The notes under the pieces: model-generated
Told to the model about the DNA's origin: nothing
What the model saw: the letters and a program-made list of their open reading frames with translations, nothing else
Database searches by the model: none
Translations under genes and position numbers: made by a program
Part shown: piece after piece, positions 5,207 through 63,492 of the stretch
How positions within the stretch are numbered: position 1 is the stretch's first letter
Layout of the letters: every line of letters starts with the position of its first letter
DNA from: Euzebya pacifica
GTDB taxonomy: Bacteria > Actinomycetota > Nitriliruptoria > Euzebyales > Euzebyaceae
DNA: 64,000 bases
Reading direction: 5' to 3'
NCBI RefSeq assembly: GCF_003344865.1
Contig: NZ_CP031165.1
Span: 3,663,910 to 3,727,909 of the forward strand

Positions 5207-5310
5207 TGGGCTCGAAAGGCTAGGTGGAGGGGGTCCACACCGCACGTGATCCGACATCGATGCGTGCTGCTTCCCCACCTCGGTGGACAATCCGTGGATA
5301 ATCGGTGTTC

Positions 5311-5823
5311 ATGGACTTCGAGTATGACGGAGCCGACGACCTCGGAGGACGCATCCTGTGGGGCAGGGTGGGCGTCCTCGGCCTCGCGGTGTTGCTTTTC
5401 TTCCTCTTCGGTCGCTGTACCGCAGGAGGTGGTGTCGACCCCGAGGTGCAGGCGAGCCTGGAAGCCCAGCTCGCCTCCGAACAGGCAACGACCGCCCAGC
5501 TGCAGGCCGACATCACGTCGCTGCAGCAGGAGATCGTGACCCTGAACGCCCAGATCGCGTCGGCCGATGGCGGTTCCACGATCACCGGCGACGGTACGAC
5601 GCCCACCGACGGCGCCACCAGCGACGGGACGACGGCCACGCCCAACGCCACCGGCGGCCAGATCTACGTGGTGAAGGAGGGCGACACCCTCTCCGCCATC
5701 GCCGAGGCGGTGTACGGCGACCCGCTGCAGTTCGGTGCGATCGCCAGCGCCAACGGGATCACCGACACCAATCCACTCCAGGTCGGCCAGGAACTGCAGA
5801 TTCCGGCCAACCCCGACGGCTGA
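5311..5823 (+). CDS. Membrane-anchored LysM protein with coiled coil
   Basis: 170 residues from ATG 5311 (an in-frame GTG lies at 5305). A single N-terminal membrane segment (about 15-33, VGVLGLAVLLFFLFG) is followed by a Gln/Ala-rich heptad region (about 45-85), a Thr/Gly/Asp linker and a C-terminal LysM module (about 118-167: YVVKEGDTLSAIAEAVYGD through LQVGQELQIP). The topology puts LysM outside, binding N-acetylglucosamine of peptidoglycan. No catalytic domain is present, so a wall-tethering or scaffold role is likely. Its LysM is strikingly like the one at 60938-61087. It is divergent from the cysteine-cluster operon across about 100 bp. Confidence 0.82.
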   Translation: MDFEYDGADDLGGRILWGRVGVLGLAVLLFFLFGRCTAGGGVDPEVQASLEAQLASEQATTAQLQADITSLQQEIVTLNAQIASADGGSTITGDGTTPTDGATSDGTTATPNATGGQIYVVKEGDTLSAIAEAVYGDPLQFGAIASANGITDTNPLQVGQELQIPANPDG

Positions 5824-55762: not shown

Positions 55763-58192
55763 TCAGATCGGCAATCGCCCATCACCGGGATCGTCCTGGT
55801 CAGGGTCGCTCCGGTTGGGGTCAGCCCGGTTCGGATCAGCCCGGTCTGCATCGGCCCGGCCAGGACCAGCCCGGTCTGGACCGGACCCGTCGGGATCAGC
55901 CCGGCTGGCATCAGCCCGGTCGAGACCAGGGCAGTCGAGACCAGGGCGGCCGAGACCAGGGCGGCCGAGGCCAGCCCGGTTGGGACCAAGCCCGTCGGGA
56001 CCGGGTCTGTCGGGAGTGTCCTGTCCCAGGCTGCGTCTGGGGTTGTCGTGGGGGAACCGGGCTCGGCGTGTGACCGTGCGGCCGTCTGCGGTCCGTTGCA
56101 CCGTCACGGTGCCGGTGGGCAGGTCGAAGGCGAGCTGCCAGCCGTCGTGGTGCACGGCGTTGTGGTGATGCCGGCACAGCGACACGCCGTTGTCCTGGTC
56201 GGTGGGGCCGTCGTGACGCCACCAGATGACGTGATGCAGATCCGTCCAGCCGATCGGCCGGCCACAGGGTGTCCGGTCGGCGATGGGAAACGCACAGCCA
56301 CCGAACAGCTGCTCCGCCGCGGTGTGCTGCGCGGTCGTCCACGCCCTGGTGGTGCGACCGATGTCCAAGGGCATCCCCGTCGCGTCGACGATCGCGCGGG
56401 TCAACCGGGCATCACACGCCAACCGCCGGACCGTCTCCGGCGAGATCACCGTCCCGAACCCACCGACACCCGCCACCTCCGCCTCCCCCGTCAGGGTCGC
56501 CAGCGGGACGGTGACGGTCACGTGGGGCTTGGTCCCACGGGAGGTCGGCAGCTCCCCCGCCTTGAGTCCAGCAGCCAGCAGATCGAGGAAGGCGTCGTAG
56601 CGCCGCTGCACAGCCGTTCGCCGTTCGTCTTCGGGGGTGCCTGGTGGGTCGAAGGTGTGGGCGGCTTCGATGCCGGACTGGACCAGCTCGTAGTCGGCAT
56701 CGGTCAGCACCACCCGCATCACCCGCTGCCCGGTGATCCCATCGGGTCGGAAGGTGACGGAGCGGCGGGCCCGCTGCGCCGCCACCGCCCGCTCCAGCGC
56801 CGCCGCGTCGGCGGCGCGCATCCGGTTGGCGTCGGTCCGTACTTGATCCGGTGACGCCCCCTGCACTGCCGAGTCGAGCAGGGCGTCCTGCCGGGCCTTG
56901 CGGGCTGCCTCGTTGGCTGCGGCCTGCTGTTCGTCCCGTTCGGCCCGCTCCCGGGCGAGCTGTTCCTCCCGGGCAGCGGCCTCACGGGCCAGCCGCATCC
57001 GCTCCGCCATCGACGCCGCCTCTGCCTGAGCCTGCTCGTCCGCACGGCGGCGTTCCTCCCGTTCGGCGTCCTGCCGTGCCGCCTCCACCCGAGCAGCCGC
57101 GTCCTGATCGGCCGCCTGCTTCTCCGCCGCCGCCACCAGCCCCGCCGCATGATCCCGCGAGATCACCCCGGCCTGCAGCTGGTCGAGCACCGTCTCCTCA
57201 TCGACCAGCCCGATCGCCAACCGGACCTCCCGCGCGGCTGTGCTGCCGGTCAGGCCCCACCGATCCGCGATCCACGCCGACAAGGACGCCGCCCCGTCCA
57301 CTGACGGCAGCCCCGTCTGATCGGCGGTCACGACCGCCCGCAACCTGGCCGCAGCAAGCGCCGCATCGATCCCCGCCAGCCCATCCACCACCAGCCGCAC
57401 CGACTCCACATCGACCGGCCCGCCAGCAGCCCCAATCCCTTCCCCGGCCTCGCCCGCAGACGCCCGGGCCAACCACCCGTTGAGCCGGCCGAGCACCCCC
57501 AACGCCTCACCCACCAACACCGCCGGATCACCAGCAACCCCCGGACCCACCGCCGACCCATCAGCCGATACGGCAGCCGCCAGACCGGATGCGGACTCCG
57601 GTCCACCACCATCGGCAGCCGCTTTGCCGGGTGCGGACTCCAACGCCTGGCCGGCACCATCGGCAGCCGCCGGTACGGCAGCGGCCACACCGGATGCGCA
57701 CTCGGACGCCGGGCCGCCACCCTCAGCCGTCGACCCACCGCCAGCCGTCGAGCCACCCTCAGCCGTCGACCCACCGCCAGCCGTCGAGCCACCCTCAGCC
57801 GTCGAGCCACCGCCAGCCGTCGACCAACCGCCAGCCGTCGACCCACCGTCAGCTGCCGACCCGCGGTCGGCCGCTTCGTCATCATCCTCTGACGGTGGCT
57901 GGGCGAGGTAGGCGGCGACGTCCTCCTCCGCCAGCCACACCTCCCCGATGCGACCACCCCACCAGCTGACCCCCGACGGCTCGCCCGGCCCGTCCCAAGG
58001 CGCACAACTGCCCCTCGGTCCCGCGGACCCGCCATGGTCCGTGGACACCGACGACGGCACAACGCGCGACGAGTCAGCTTGGGGCTCGGCGAGGTAGACA
58101 GCGACCTCGTCCTCCGACAACCACACCTCCGCCAGCCGGCCACCCCAGCTGTCCGGAACCGCGTCCACCCCCCGGTCCACCACCGCACTCAT
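55763..58192 (-). CDS. DUF222/13E12-type protein with HNH endonuclease domain and extensive internal repeats
   Basis: 809 residues from ATG 58192, preceded by GGAGGAGGTGA. An opening motif (S/WWGGR.xEVWLxExxVAxYLAxP) occurs twice (about 15-37 and 77-99). A GGSTA/GGGSTAE run fills 116-160. DUF222 (about 220-600) includes a coiled-coil insertion (about 354-434). The HNH site follows (about 640-680, TDLHHVIWWRHDGPTDQDNGVSLCRHHHNAVHH). The last about 85 residues are 5-residue repeats rich in Gly, Arg, Asp and Pro. DUF222-HNH proteins are abundant in actinobacteria; whether they cut DNA is not known. Length is greater than usual because of the repeats. Confidence 0.85.
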   Translation of the reverse strand: MSAVVDRGVDAVPDSWGGRLAEVWLSEDEVAVYLAEPQADSSRVVPSSVSTDHGGSAGPRGSCAPWDGPGEPSGVSWWGGRIGEVWLAEEDVAAYLAQPPSEDDDEAADRGSAADGGSTAGGWSTAGGGSTAEGGSTAGGGSTAEGGSTAGGGSTAEGGGPASECASGVAAAVPAAADGAGQALESAPGKAAADGGGPESASGLAAAVSADGSAVGPGVAGDPAVLVGEALGVLGRLNGWLARASAGEAGEGIGAAGGPVDVESVRLVVDGLAGIDAALAAARLRAVVTADQTGLPSVDGAASLSAWIADRWGLTGSTAAREVRLAIGLVDEETVLDQLQAGVISRDHAAGLVAAAEKQAADQDAAARVEAARQDAEREERRRADEQAQAEAASMAERMRLAREAAAREEQLARERAERDEQQAAANEAARKARQDALLDSAVQGASPDQVRTDANRMRAADAAALERAVAAQRARRSVTFRPDGITGQRVMRVVLTDADYELVQSGIEAAHTFDPPGTPEDERRTAVQRRYDAFLDLLAAGLKAGELPTSRGTKPHVTVTVPLATLTGEAEVAGVGGFGTVISPETVRRLACDARLTRAIVDATGMPLDIGRTTRAWTTAQHTAAEQLFGGCAFPIADRTPCGRPIGWTDLHHVIWWRHDGPTDQDNGVSLCRHHHNAVHHDGWQLAFDLPTGTVTVQRTADGRTVTRRARFPHDNPRRSLGQDTPDRPGPDGLGPNRAGLGRPGLGRPGLDCPGLDRADASRADPDGSGPDRAGPGRADADRADPNRADPNRSDPDQDDPGDGRLPI
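55785..56010. repeat. Degenerate 15-bp repeats at the 3' end of the DUF222-HNH gene
   Basis: The plus strand shows repeated TCAGCCCGGT/GACCAGGGCG-type 15-bp units. They encode Gly-Leu-Xxx-Arg-Pro and Arg-Ala-Asp-Pro-Asp-like pentapeptides on the minus strand. Confidence 0.75.
57715..57850. repeat. 18-bp repeats encoding GGGSTA/EGGSTA units
   Basis: Alternating CCGCCAGCCGTCGA and CCCTCAGCCGTCGA units, 18 bp apart, encode the low-complexity linker of the DUF222-HNH protein. Confidence 0.8.
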
Positions 58193-58240
58193 CGTCGCGC
58201 TCACCTCCTCCCGGAATCCAGTTCTCGATGTACCGATCAA

Positions 58241-58330
58241 GGTACGCCGCGGGTATGACATCCGGCTTCCTGGCCCCACCCCGGAGCCCTGCTCGACCGT
58301 GGAATCACCGTACGCCCGCGGTGTGACATC
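58241..58330. repeat. Pair of near-identical about 21-bp direct repeats upstream of the DUF222-HNH gene
   Basis: GTACGCCGCGGGTATGACATC (58242-58262) and its near copy (58311-58330, one extra C, one missing G, A to G) lie about 69 bp apart. They sit in the 209-bp gap between divergent genes. Candidate binding sites or duplicated promoter parts. Nothing else is recognised in the gap. Confidence 0.65.
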
Positions 58331-58401: not shown

Positions 58402-59532
58402 ATGGACGCGTCGCACGACCGCACCCTGGTCCACGGCACACTCGATCGGGTGCCCCTCCCCTCGTCGCTGCAACCTCGACCCCACGCCCGGAACGTCGTG
58501 GCCGCGGTGCTCGTCGCCCTCCTCCTCGCCACCGCCGCAGGCTGCACCGACCAGGCGCCCGATCCGGACGCGGTCGCGGTCGCACCTCCGGACCCCAACG
58601 CCACCGCACTTCCCGCCTCCACTCCTCCCCAGCCCGCCGCGTCGACGTCGACCCCCGAGGACGAACCGCAGGCCCCGCCCTCCACACCCGCAGCCAGCAC
58701 CCCAGAACCCGACAACGACCCACAGCCGACCACCCTCGGCACCTTCCCCGTCGAGACGATCCCGGAGGCGAGCGGCATCGCGGCCAGCGGCATCGATCCC
58801 GACCGGCTGTGGCTGCTCGACGACGGCCCCGGCACGACCTCCGTGTGGGCGACCTCAACCGACGGCACCATCCTGGGCGAGGTCACCATGGCCGGCGTGG
58901 ACGGGGTCGACACCGAAGCCCTGGCCGTCGCCCCCTGCTCCACCACCGACCCCCAGCCCTGCATCTGGGTCGGCGACATCGGCGACAACCTGCCGGCCCA
59001 CGACGCGATCCGGGTCCACCGCTTCCCCGAACCGACGACGGTCGACGGTCCGGCCACCGTGGACGTCACGACCGCCGCCTTCACCTACCCCGAGGGCCCG
59101 GTCAACGCCGAGGCGATGGTGATCGGCCCGGACGCACGGCCCTGGATCCTCACCCGCGAGGAGGACATCACCCGGCTGTTCGCCCCCGCCGCCTTCGCCG
59201 ACGGTCCCCTCGAGCAAGTCGCCACGATGGACATCCCCGTCCCCCGACTCCCCCTCCTCGCGATGTTCGCCGGGCTCCTCGTCACCGACGCCGCCCGCCA
59301 CCCCGACGACGGCCGCCTGCTGCTCCGCACCTACGACAGCGCGGTCGTCCTGACCCCGCCCTCGCCCGACGCCGACCCAGCCACCATCGCGGACTGGACC
59401 GTCGAGGAGGTCCCGACCGCCTCCGAACCACAGGGCGAGGCGATCACCTGGCTAGCCGCCAGCAGCGACCGCCCGGCCGGCTACGCGACGGTCAGCGAGG
59501 GCACTGGCACCATCAGCTTCGTCCCTCGCTGA
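58402..59532 (+). CDS. Probable lipoprotein with beta-propeller-like body
   Basis: 376 residues. A hydrophobic segment ends in TAAGC (Cys48), a fair lipobox, after a longer than normal basic N-terminus (an internal start may be used). A Pro/Ser/Thr-rich tether (about 50-110) leads to a domain with IPEASGIAASGIDPDRLWLLDDG, GVDGVDTEALAV, CIWVGDIGDN and PEGPVNAEAMVIGPDARPWILTREED. These segments suggest a six-bladed propeller of the esterase-like or SdiA-regulated type; no catalytic motif is clear. It is 144 bp upstream of the ECF sigma gene on the same strand. Confidence 0.72.
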   Translation: MDASHDRTLVHGTLDRVPLPSSLQPRPHARNVVAAVLVALLLATAAGCTDQAPDPDAVAVAPPDPNATALPASTPPQPAASTSTPEDEPQAPPSTPAASTPEPDNDPQPTTLGTFPVETIPEASGIAASGIDPDRLWLLDDGPGTTSVWATSTDGTILGEVTMAGVDGVDTEALAVAPCSTTDPQPCIWVGDIGDNLPAHDAIRVHRFPEPTTVDGPATVDVTTAAFTYPEGPVNAEAMVIGPDARPWILTREEDITRLFAPAAFADGPLEQVATMDIPVPRLPLLAMFAGLLVTDAARHPDDGRLLLRTYDSAVVLTPPSPDADPATIADWTVEEVPTASEPQGEAITWLAASSDRPAGYATVSEGTGTISFVPR

Positions 59533-59676
59533 CCCGGGACTCGTGGCATCCAGATCCTGCCGTTGACGGGGTCGCCGGTTGAGGCAGGGGCCGATCGTTG
59601 CTCGATGCGGCAGCGTGCCGGGAAACCTGTCAGGTTGGGCTAAACCGTCACAGGGACTCGATGGGTTGGGAGGGTG

Positions 59677-60207
59677 ATGCAGCACATCCCCGACGACCCC
59701 GAGGCATTCTGCCGCCAGCACTGGCGGCCCCTGGCGCAGTCCCTCGCCGTCTACACCGATGACGTGGCGCTCGGTCAGGACCTGGCGCAGGAGGCGCTCG
59801 CCAGGGTGCTGGTGCGCTGGTCTCGCGTTCGGACCATGCGCTCGCCGGGTGGGTACGCCTACCGGATCGGGGTCAACCTGGCCCGTGACGTCCTGCGCGA
59901 GCGGCAGCGAACGCGACCTGGCGGCGGGGCGACCGGACATGCAGAGGCCCAGGACCCCACCACCCGCATGTCCATCGACCGGGCCCTTGCGGCGCTGCCG
60001 CCCCGTCAGCGGTTGGCGATGTCGCTGCGCCATCTGGCCGACCTGAGCGTCGCCCAGACCGCCCACGCCATGGGTTGCAGACCTGGGACGGTCAAGGCGC
60101 TGTGCCATCAGGCTGCCGCGAACCTTCGCACCAGCCCACAGCTGGACTGGCACCCCGCAAGCCCCGTCCGCCCCCGCGACACACACGAGGTGCCCATCGA
60201 TGAATGA
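59677..60207 (+). CDS. ECF-type (sigma-70 family group 4) sigma factor
   Basis: 176 residues from ATG 59677 (GTG 59674 is adjacent). Region 2 includes DVALGQDLAQEALARVLVRWSRVRTMRSPGGYAYRIGVNLARDVLRER. Region 4 includes ALAALPPRQRLAMSLRHLADLSVAQTAHAMGCRPGTVKALCHQAAANLR. It matches the SigE/SigK-like ECF layout. It overlaps by 8 nt a gene whose product is not a canonical anti-sigma factor but a membrane thioredoxin-LysM fusion, which probably controls it. Confidence 0.92.
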   Translation: MQHIPDDPEAFCRQHWRPLAQSLAVYTDDVALGQDLAQEALARVLVRWSRVRTMRSPGGYAYRIGVNLARDVLRERQRTRPGGGATGHAEAQDPTTRMSIDRALAALPPRQRLAMSLRHLADLSVAQTAHAMGCRPGTVKALCHQAAANLRTSPQLDWHPASPVRPRDTHEVPIDE

Positions 60208-61531
60208 TGTCCGTACAGCGATCCGTGAATCAGCGCCCGGGGTTGACGAGTTGGACATGGACGAGGTCCGACGGCGCGCCGCCCGAATGCGTGTGGCGCA
60301 ACAACAGCGTGCCCGGCGGGTCGTCGTGGGTGTCGCCGCCAGCATGTGCGTCGTCGTCCTGGGGCTGTCGATCGGCAGCGTCGTCAGTCCACCTTCGCCC
60401 GACGTATCAGTCGGCGCGACCCCGACCGCCGGTCCGGTGGCGATCGCCCCGCCGGCCGACAGCCTGCGAGGGACGACACTGGACGGCGGCGAACTCGCGA
60501 TCGCCGACTTTCCGGGTGAGCCGCTGATCCTCTATGCGTTCGCTGACTGGTGCGGACCCTGCCAGGACGACCTTGCGCTCCTGGCGGCCACCGACCTCGA
60601 GGTGCGGACCATCGGGCTGGCCGTCGACGCCGACGAGGATGGATCCCGGATCGCCCTGGCCGATGCCGGGCTGGCCCTGCCGACCATGTTGCTCGACTGG
60701 GACCAGCTGGCGATGTCGGTGACGCCCGTCGAGGCGTTGCCAGTCTGGTTCGCCCTCAACGCCGACCACGAGGTGGTCGACACCATCGCGGGGGCCATCG
60801 GCGGCGAGCTGCGGCTGCGCACCCTCGCTGAGACGGCCCTCACCCGGACCGAGCCCAGCAACGTGGTGACAATGGCTCCCGAGGCGCCGCCCGCAACCTC
60901 GAGCCCGGTCGGCTGCCCGGTGGGCCCTGTCGAGGAACGCACCTACGTCGTCCAGCCCGGGGACTCCCTCTCCGGCATCGCCCGGACGGTCTACGGGGAC
61001 CCGCTACTGTTCGGCATCATCGCGGACGCCAACGGCATCACCGACACGAGTCCGCTGCAGGTGGGGCAGACACTGGTCATTCCCCCATGCGAGGCATCCC
61101 AGGACCCGGGAGTTGCCACCGGAGCTGCGCTGGATGCAATGCTCGCCAGGCTTCGTGCAACGCTCGACCCCGAGGTCGCGCAGGCGCTCGTGGCGGGCCT
61201 CCCCGACACCTACTCGGAGCTGCCGACGGCTGACCCGTCCGCGGTGGCCTTCGGGACCGCCGACCTGACCCTCCTGGTCCACCAGCTCGACCTCCTGCCG
61301 GGCATGACGGCCGAACAGGTCATCGCCGACGCGCTCGCCGCAGGGTCAGGCACGGTCGATCTCGATGGGGTCCCCGCAGCCTTCACCAACCCAGCCGCGA
61401 CCGGTCAGCTGCTGGTGCCGCTGCCAGGAAACCGGGTCATTGTGCTCAGCCCCGAGGAAAGCCGGGCCATCGACTACGAGATCAACGTGCTGCAGCAGTG
61501 GATGGTGGTGGTACGCCTTCAGCTGGGTTGA
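60200..61531 (+). CDS. Membrane TlpA/thioredoxin-like and LysM fusion encoded with an ECF sigma factor
   Basis: 443 residues; ATG 60200 lies inside the end of the sigma gene. Residues 1-40 form a charged cytosolic helix (MDEVRRRAARMRVAQQQRARR), then one membrane segment (about 41-62) and an outside linker. Next come a TlpA-like thioredoxin domain (about 85-213) with ADWCGPC (Cys118, Cys121) and cis-Pro motif ALPVWF (Pro181), and a LysM domain (about 247-296). A C-terminal domain of about 145 residues is unrecognised. The position is that of an anti-sigma factor. It could hold the sigma factor through its short N-terminus and respond to disulfide state or wall binding; this is inference. Confidence 0.87.
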   Translation: MNDVRTAIRESAPGVDELDMDEVRRRAARMRVAQQQRARRVVVGVAASMCVVVLGLSIGSVVSPPSPDVSVGATPTAGPVAIAPPADSLRGTTLDGGELAIADFPGEPLILYAFADWCGPCQDDLALLAATDLEVRTIGLAVDADEDGSRIALADAGLALPTMLLDWDQLAMSVTPVEALPVWFALNADHEVVDTIAGAIGGELRLRTLAETALTRTEPSNVVTMAPEAPPATSSPVGCPVGPVEERTYVVQPGDSLSGIARTVYGDPLLFGIIADANGITDTSPLQVGQTLVIPPCEASQDPGVATGAALDAMLARLRATLDPEVAQALVAGLPDTYSELPTADPSAVAFGTADLTLLVHQLDLLPGMTAEQVIADALAAGSGTVDLDGVPAAFTNPAATGQLLVPLPGNRVIVLSPEESRAIDYEINVLQQWMVVVRLQLG

Positions 61532-61599: not shown

Positions 61600-63492
61600 C
61601 TAGTCCGGAGCGGGCACCGGCCACTCGCCCGGCGTGGGGTTCGTGTCGATCACACCGGTCGCCACGACGGACGGCATGTCCTCCCCGATCTCCGCATGGA
61701 ACCCACGCTCGATGGTCACGCTGGACACGTACACGACGTCACCGGCCGCATCCCGCACGGTCACGGTGTACGGCTCGGTGTCACCCACCTCGAAGTCGTC
61801 GAGCTGCTTCTCGTTCAGCAGGAACGGACGGCTCGAGGGCGGCACCCGCAGGTCGAACGCGCCGTCCTGGCCGATGCGAACCGTGCGGCGCAGCTCCTCG
61901 TCGACCAGGGTCGGCCGCAGCAGGTCGCCGGTCGGGTCCTCCACCTCCGGCAGTCCACCGACGGAGATGACCGGCGTCCCCGACAGCTGCAGGTTCGTCG
62001 GCGTCTGGAACGCCTTGTACACCTCGACGGTCCCACCTGCCGGGCCCTCGCCGCTGATGCGGGCATGCACCGTCTCGTCGATCGCCGCCAACGAGTGGCG
62101 GACGAACGCCCCACGGTTCTGCTCGTACATCGCCGGGATCGTGCCCGAGTAGGTCCCGTGGAACTCGGTGCCGTGCTCGAAGGTGTAGATGATCGTCCGG
62201 GTCGCGGCGTGGCCCCAGTCGCGGCTCGTGCCCGACGTCGGGTACAGGTTGAACGCCTGGATCGGGTCGTACCCGTTGCCCTCGAACCGTGTGCCCTCGT
62301 GGTCGAAGCCGTCGCGCATCTCCCGCGCGATCCGCGACATGACCGGCCAGTCGGGGCTGCGGATCTCCCGCGGCTCGCGACCCCACGGGATCAACATCTG
62401 CTGGCCCGAGGTGTGGTGGGTGATGTGGGTGATCGGCAGGTTGCTGCGGACGAGGTCCCGGACGTTGTGGGTCTCGGGCTCGCTGAAGGGCTGGGTGCCG
62501 CGGTAGGTCTGGCTCTCCGGGATCGATGACGACCCGGACTCGTCGCCCCAGTGGAAGGGGTAGTTGCGGTTGAGGTCGATGCCGTAGGCGTCGGGCTGCG
62601 ACGCCCCCACGGGTGAGCCACCGACGATCGGACCGGTGACCTCCAGCGGTCCCTCGTTGCTGAGCGCACGGACGTTCTTGCGCCACATGTCCCCCTTGCC
62701 GGTCACGGCGAGGGGGAAGCCGAGGAAGATGTCGTTGTCGCTGGTCTGTCCGGTGATCGCCGCAGCTTCGACGGTGCGGTCGAACCCGTCGGGGTTGACC
62801 AGCGGAAGGATGATCGTGCGGGCGTTGTCGACGATCGAGGCGATGACCGGGTCGCTGTCGTAGTTCTCCAGCAGCTCGTGTGCCCACATCATCGGCATCT
62901 CGCCGGCCGGCCACTCACGGCAGTGGTGCATGCCGTCGTGCATGACGACGGGTCGGCCGTCGTCGTTGGCGACGTCGGTCGCGATCTCCACGCCGTACAC
63001 GGTCTTCCCCAGCAGCGACGTCGTGGGCATCTCCAGCAGCCGCACGCGTCCGGTGCCCTCGTGGGCGGCGACGAGCGCCTTGAGGTCGGCCTCGTAGACC
63101 GCCGAGCCCAGGCGGTACTCACCGTTGGTCTCGCCCGGCTGCGGCCCCAGCCCGGCAGGCCTGGCGACACCGGCGTCAGCAGCAGTCGGGACCAGCTCGT
63201 AGTCCATGCCGACCGCGTCGAGCCGAGCGGCGTCGCCGTCCCACAGCAGCACCTCGACGGTGCCGTCGTCGAACGTCGTGTGGGTGTCGTCCAGCTGCGC
63301 CATCAGCAGCCGCTGGGCTGCGGTGGTGGGCCGCACGTGCGCAACGACGGGGCCGGCGGAACCAACGACACCGGCGCCGGAGGAAGTCGACGCGGCCGCA
63401 GGGGCGGCCACGAGCAGGGAGCGGCCGGCGGTCAGCGCGGCGGCACCGGCGCCGGAGTAACGAAGCAGGTCACGACGGGACAGGAAGGTCAT
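61600..63492 (-). CDS. Tat-exported M14 zinc carboxypeptidase
   Basis: 630 residues. The start SRRDLLRYSG with an Ala-rich h-region and AAAS cleavage site is a twin-arginine signal. The M14 domain (about 130-460) has zinc ligands HxxE in HHCREWPAGE (about 189-193), the substrate-binding LNRNYPFHWG, a later zinc His in THITHHTSG and catalytic Glu in TIIYTFEHGTEFHG. The C-terminal about 150 residues are a beta-sandwich (carboxypeptidase-regulatory-like). It removes C-terminal residues from peptides outside the cell. Convergent with the thioredoxin-LysM gene. Confidence 0.93.
   Translation of the reverse strand: MTFLSRRDLLRYSGAGAAALTAGRSLLVAAPAAASTSSGAGVVGSAGPVVAHVRPTTAAQRLLMAQLDDTHTTFDDGTVEVLLWDGDAARLDAVGMDYELVPTAADAGVARPAGLGPQPGETNGEYRLGSAVYEADLKALVAAHEGTGRVRLLEMPTTSLLGKTVYGVEIATDVANDDGRPVVMHDGMHHCREWPAGEMPMMWAHELLENYDSDPVIASIVDNARTIILPLVNPDGFDRTVEAAAITGQTSDNDIFLGFPLAVTGKGDMWRKNVRALSNEGPLEVTGPIVGGSPVGASQPDAYGIDLNRNYPFHWGDESGSSSIPESQTYRGTQPFSEPETHNVRDLVRSNLPITHITHHTSGQQMLIPWGREPREIRSPDWPVMSRIAREMRDGFDHEGTRFEGNGYDPIQAFNLYPTSGTSRDWGHAATRTIIYTFEHGTEFHGTYSGTIPAMYEQNRGAFVRHSLAAIDETVHARISGEGPAGGTVEVYKAFQTPTNLQLSGTPVISVGGLPEVEDPTGDLLRPTLVDEELRRTVRIGQDGAFDLRVPPSSRPFLLNEKQLDDFEVGDTEPYTVTVRDAAGDVVYVSSVTIERGFHAEIGEDMPSVVATGVIDTNPTPGEWPVPAPD

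Follow-up and report, generated by a model that had tools for sequence, protein, structure and literature searches.

CnrY, the anti-sigma factor of Cupriavidus metallidurans, wraps its sigma factor with two helices (PMC4598750, PMC7406223), and in the class II (CnrY-like) anti-sigma factors the segment that acts in the cytosol has fewer than 50 aa (PMC7406223). The helices of this class embrace sigma-2 and sigma-4 and so prevent binding to RNAP. The RsgI anti-sigma factors bear exchangeable substrate-sensing ectodomains (PMC12203970). Among other membrane anti-sigma factors, RsiV from Bacillus subtilis binds lysozyme and OsrA from Bradyrhizobium uses a periplasmic cysteine (PMC4598750). Release of the sigma factor by conformational change or by regulated proteolysis has precedents in RsgI (PMC12203970) and RsiV (PMC4598750).

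The pair of genes described here is located in the window, a stretch of 64,000 nucleotides on contig 1 of the 6.37 Mb genome of Euzebya pacifica (G000), which was compared with three other species of the genus (G001, G002 and G003). It is formed by an ECF sigma factor gene and a second gene, overlapping it by 8 nt, that codes for the partner protein. The two are probably a sigma/anti-sigma pair, in which the partner would be a one-span receptor, with a tail that restrains the sigma factor and an ectodomain that senses the envelope. The features of the locus are detailed in Table 1.

Table 1. Features of the sigma factor/partner locus (positions in the window).
Feature	Position	Strand	Description
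Candidate promoter AACCTGT-N9-CTAAACCG	59624..59647	+	Precedes the sigma gene; ECF-like -35/-10
ECF sigma factor gene	59677..60207	+	176 aa; ATG 59677, stop 60207 (ORF reading); sigma-2 and sigma-4 only, SigE-family-like (domain search)
Partner gene, probable membrane-bound anti-sigma factor	60200..61531	+	443 aa; ATG 60200, stop 61531
Cytosolic tail, residues 1-39	60200..60316	+	Probable short (class II-like) anti-sigma segment; tail profile, class tail length
Single TM span, residues ~40-62	60317..60385	+	Hydropathy scan of relatives; window sequence read directly
ResA/TlpA-like thioredoxin domain, residues 85-203	60452..60808	+	Redoxin and ResA structure matches
LysM module, residues 247-297	60938..61090	+	Pfam LysM; structural match
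C-terminal alpha/beta domain, residues 303-443	61106..61528	+	LpqN/PsbP/Mog1-like, also RseB C-domain-like by fold

The sigma protein showed the Pfam domains Sigma70_r2 (4e-8, residues 15-79) and Sigma70_r4_2 (6e-12, residues 98-148), and sigma-3 and sigma-1.1 were absent from its 176 residues in the same search; it is thus an ECF sigma factor. The top NCBIfam model was TIGR02983 SigE-fam_strep with 118.6 bits and, since this value is below the cut-off of 141.55, the protein is designated SigE-family-like and not a member of TIGR02983. The candidate promoter consists of conserved blocks within an intergenic region that has otherwise diverged between the window genome and G002. Genome-wide, the pattern occurred once in the window genome, once in G002 and nowhere in G001, G003 or the reversed-pattern controls; in the regulon search across the window genome the sigma factor's own promoter was the sole match. 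This element suggests that the sigma factor may be autoregulated.

Two genes adjoin the pair, one for a secreted protein without Pfam match (58402-59532, +) and one for a Tat-signal M14 carboxypeptidase (61600-63492, -), both in the same position in G002; the gene upstream of the G003 pair differs from that of the window and G002. In the large ORF at 55763-58279 (-), an HNH-like motif (LHHVIWW) is accompanied by highly repetitive stretches at both termini, with units of the GGGSTAEGG and PGLDRPGLG types.

Domain and structure searches confirmed the anatomy proposed for the partner in the initial annotation: a charged tail, one membrane span, a TlpA-like domain with CGPC and cis-Pro, and a LysM module. 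The TM is oriented with its positive side inside. The CGPC, encoded at 60551-60562, corresponds to Cys118 and Cys121, as had been stated. The Redoxin match in Pfam (E 8e-6, 26.1 bits) was narrowly below the cut-off of 26.6 and the NCBIfam ResA score was 24.2 against a cut-off of 170; since the family scores are under the curated cut-offs, the domain is described as ResA-like and not filed as ResA. A ResA structure from the PDB aligned with E 2e-6, including the cis-Pro strand, and with CGPC and LP in register, so that CxxC and cis-Pro both occur in ResA-alignable sequence. The LysM module was assigned to PF01476 (residues 249-295, E 3e-10, 40.4 bits, cut-off 20.9) and matched LysM chains structurally with Z 7-8; it is flanked by Cys239 and Cys297, possibly as a structural disulfide. 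A second one-TM LysM protein is encoded at 5305-5823 (+) of the window; it contains a stretch resembling a coiled coil, and its LysM, at the C-terminus, shares 58% identity with that of the partner. Similar LysM matches were found in the other three genomes of the genus. It may be speculated that the LysM encoded at 5305-5823 was the donor to the partner by domain shuffling.

The C-terminal domain, folded alone with AlphaFold, reached pLDDT 84 and pTM 0.77. Its structure matches (VIA-align) were the Bacteroides protein 3hlz (Z 9.4), LpqN 6e5d (Z 8.0 over 130 residues, 15% identity) and the C-terminal domain of RseB (Z 7.6); MTC28, PsbP, Mog1 and the PknH sensor domain were further look-alikes. 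Foldseek E values were at least 0.01. These scores are in a range where a common arrangement alone may be shared, and a fold class that is LpqN/PsbP/Mog1-like or RseB C-domain-like is a fair guess from weak scores, one that does not extend to function. AlphaFold models of the full-length monomer from four sequences had low confidence in the tail and the thioredoxin region; helices were placed, also with low confidence, at residues 4-11 and 20-59.

In agreement with the earlier reading, the Pfam and NCBIfam searches of the partner gave no anti-sigma domain at E ≤ 1, whether of the zinc type, the RskA type or any other. Class I anti-sigma factors (ASDI/ZAS/RskA) have a cytosolic four-helix domain of at least 50 aa or the HxxxCxxC motif; this motif is absent from the partner and the tail has 39 aa, which places it outside that class. 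The 39 aa before the TM lie within the length of class II, and 39 is also the median of the tails surveyed below.

To compare the layout with those of other sigma factors, 180 loci from genome searches and a named-genome scan were surveyed and the gene after each sigma gene was examined. Close sigma relatives were defined as those scoring 100 bits or more with the genus profile (n = 90 non-redundant actinobacterial loci) and other families as those with less than 65 bits (n = 37). At 82/90 loci of the former and 4/37 of the latter, the sigma gene was overlapped or abutted by one coding for a short-tailed protein with a TM. In the 82 loci, the commonest gene offsets were -8, -4 and -11 nt, and the tails had 30-54 aa (median 39, interquartile range 37-41), with a net charge of about +6 over the last 16 residues. 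A single TM was found in 78 of these partners, and the zinc anti-sigma motif HxxxCxxC in none. The tail consensus is MSSDDLRDLLRRAAAEPPAGPPDLAALRRRARRRRRRRRAAR and the window tail MNDVRTAIRESAPGVDELDMDEVRRRAARMRVAQQQRAR. The window tail scored 16.9 bits with a profile built on 105 tails from outside the genus, a value reached by none of 200 shuffles, which controlled for composition in an alignment that is short and Arg-rich. The tails of G002, G003 and G001 also passed the profile; that of the paralogous pair (L041) did not (2/200 shuffles). The window partner thus shows the overlapping gene, the Arg-rich tail of 25-60 aa, the first TM and the profile match by which the short-tail partner class of SigE-like ECF sigma factors is defined in the present analysis. 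This layout recurs at the Actinomycetota loci L041-L060, L072-L094 and L186-L246.

The ectodomains of these partners were mutually unrelated, with 47 Pfam families, of which the commonest, LysM, was found in 4/82, all from this genus; kelch and other propellers, BsuPI, META, the SecDF head, AMIN-like domains and a periplasmic binding protein followed. Redoxin was detected in two of the 82, and the thioredoxin domain was absent from all partners examined beyond those of the window and G002. Because the tail is kept while the ectodomains are unrelated, the arrangement points to a transmitter that stays constant and receivers that are exchangeable, and the partners of SigE-like ECF sigma factors appear to form a broad, uncharacterised group of anti-sigma receptors. 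The initial annotation had described the partner as standing in place of an anti-sigma factor; this is probably wrong, since the tail is common to the partners of close sigma relatives (82/90) and matches the tail profile, and the protein is best read as a short-tail anti-sigma factor. The layout is probably ordinary for such a factor, and the ectodomain unusual and lineage-specific, as judged from these sequence comparisons.

Within the genus, G002 harboured a syntenic orthologous pair, with a sigma factor 89% and a partner 76% identical to those of the window; the pairing with an overlapping gene reported earlier is therefore not due to chance. The G002 partner keeps the LysM, the C-terminal domain and the CxxC, as CEPC. 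The sigma factor of the G003 pair (52-56% identity) has as its partner a TM-LysM-C-domain protein without thioredoxin; that of the G001 pair (about 47% identity) is encoded with a protein made up of a TM, an unknown region, LysM and another unknown region, also without thioredoxin. LysM and thioredoxin are both missing from the closest paralogous pair in the window genome (C1:799124). LysM is accordingly present in such a pair in 4/4 genomes of the genus and thioredoxin in 2/4 (the window and its G002 orthologue), so that LysM, and not thioredoxin, is the feature common to the genus pairs. Conservation of the pair in relatives had been proposed as the test of the original idea; the thioredoxin-LysM pairing was recovered in one of the three other species, and the sigma factor with a LysM partner in all three. 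Of the combined sensing of disulfide state and peptidoglycan suggested then, the LysM part has its domain in the four pairs, and disulfide sensing as the core function is weakened by the absence of thioredoxin from G003, G001 and all other partners examined. Restricted to the window and its 76% identical orthologue, disulfide sensing would be a lineage-specific addition. The sigma tree placed the G001 sigma factor apart from the other three of the LysM pairs, but a single genus clade could not be rejected (p-AU 0.27 with the four LysM pairs, 0.52 with the paralogue included), and the recruitment of LysM once or twice is compatible with these data. No other protein with thioredoxin and LysM was found among 396 genomes of the phylum at E 1e-10. 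Five TM-thioredoxin proteins of relatives (G001, G042, G260, G072 and G017) aligned to the partner ectodomain, and no sigma gene was detected within about 2.5 kb of them in the fetched regions. A pattern-based contig scan yielded no relative when run with the partner protein, and that with the sigma alignment gave, among the matches listed, more distant sigma factors only.

Pairwise distances of sigma factors and tails were correlated (r = 0.37, reached in 0/2000 global re-pairings), with r = 0.07 for sigma factors and TM spans. When re-pairing was done within genomes only, the tail correlation was reached in 28/2000 with all pairs and in 2/2000 without G002; without the genus of the window it was reached in 158/2000 and that of the TM in 46/2000. 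The excess of co-variation within genomes is modest, dependent on the subset and inconsistent. The correlation is compatible with contact between tail and sigma factor and is not proof of it; co-variation was rejected as such a proof because of the inconsistent within-genome results.

The survey and the genus comparison also bear on other roles for the partner. It could be an envelope effector, namely a wall-anchored thiol-disulfide oxidoreductase co-transcribed as a target of the sigma factor, with the tail as an ordinary positive-inside anchor. The thioredoxin domain appears catalytically complete (CGPC, cis-Pro), DsbD/CcdA-type reductases are encoded in the genome and Arg-rich N-terminal tails before a TM are common, but the partners of related sigma factors have the tail in common and not an enzyme domain, thioredoxin is lacking in the LysM partners of both G001 and G003, and for the five ectodomain-like proteins mentioned above no sigma gene was detected within about 2.5 kb; we regard this role as unlikely. 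Control of the sigma factor by a separate anti-sigma factor encoded elsewhere, or at the level of transcription alone, would leave the partner without a part, and some ECF sigma factors do occur without a co-encoded regulator (PMC8103513); since the two genes overlap tightly and stay paired in all four genus genomes and more widely in the phylum, we find it highly improbable.

Very unlikely as well is an activator or co-factor, that is, a membrane receptor that keeps or makes the sigma factor active. Sequence data cannot tell an inhibitor from an activator, and some ECF partners work both ways, RskA being presented as a dual-function activator-inhibitor in the title of PMC7509140; inhibition is, nevertheless, by far the commonest role described for co-encoded membrane ECF partners (PMC7406223, PMC8103513).

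According to the preferred reading, that of a sigma/anti-sigma pair, the 39-residue Arg-rich tail would, in the manner of CnrY, bind the ECF sigma factor on the cytosolic side and keep it off RNA polymerase. Outside, the LysM would grip or read peptidoglycan, the ResA-like domain may add a thiol/disulfide input or redox activity in this lineage and the LpqN/PsbP-like domain probably binds a ligand or a wall-proximal signal; the sensor role attributed earlier to the outer part is considered probable. A change in the wall or in its redox state would alter the ectodomain, and the receptor would then change conformation or undergo regulated proteolysis, with release of the sigma factor, which probably activates its own operon. 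The genome encodes an M50 site-2 protease, a candidate for the proteolysis of the receptor, and DsbD/CcdA-type proteins that could keep the ResA-like domain reduced.

If the tail inhibits the sigma factor, many "hypothetical" one-TM neighbours of SigE-like ECF sigma factors would be identifiable as anti-sigma receptors, and their ectodomains would name their signals. In the window partner, sensing of the cell wall by an anti-sigma factor and, in one lineage, of the thiol state outside the cytoplasm would then become testable. More tentatively, and with some doubt, there may exist a large, mostly uncharacterised actinobacterial class of one-protein receptors with a constant ECF sigma factor, an inhibitory tail of about 39 residues, a TM and swapped ectodomains, of which this member would be a two-input sensor (LysM for peptidoglycan, thioredoxin for thiols) not described for any ECF system. 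A search of the open literature, which did not cover the main ECF reclassification, gave no LysM or thioredoxin-domain anti-sigma factor; the pair may thus belong to an ECF group already described.

Compared with known systems, the partner resembles CnrY in the short (<50 aa) cytosolic segment, the single TM, the lack of a zinc motif and the co-encoded ECF sigma factor; this likeness is one of layout, and the two-helix wrap is a feature of CnrY. Whereas CnrY senses through the separate protein CnrX, the partner has the sensor fused in the same chain. With RsgI, the inhibitory, polysaccharide-reading anti-SigI factor of Clostridium thermocellum, it shares a constant N-terminus and TM with exchangeable ectodomains. 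RsgI differs in its larger, beta-barrel-like N-terminus, in its self-cleaving periplasmic domain, in its sigma factor, SigI, which is not an ECF, and in its sensors, which are CBM, PA14 or GH domains in place of LysM plus thioredoxin. RsiV and OsrA are likewise anti-sigma factors of the membrane that respond directly to a signal from the envelope, which for the partner is a proposed role; to our knowledge, neither has a thioredoxin fold or LysM. The ResA/TlpA thiol-disulfide oxidoreductases have the same fold, the same positions of CxxC and cis-Pro and a membrane anchor, but in the partner this domain shares its chain with the sigma-linked tail, the LysM and the LpqN/PsbP-like domain. The other partners of SigE-family-like ECF sigma factors in Actinomycetota agree in gene overlap, tail length, Arg-rich tail and single TM, and differ in the ectodomain (LysM in the genus pairs only, Redoxin in two only). 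By analogy, the closest functional model is a short CnrY-like (class II) anti-sigma tail carrying an exchangeable RsgI-like sensor.
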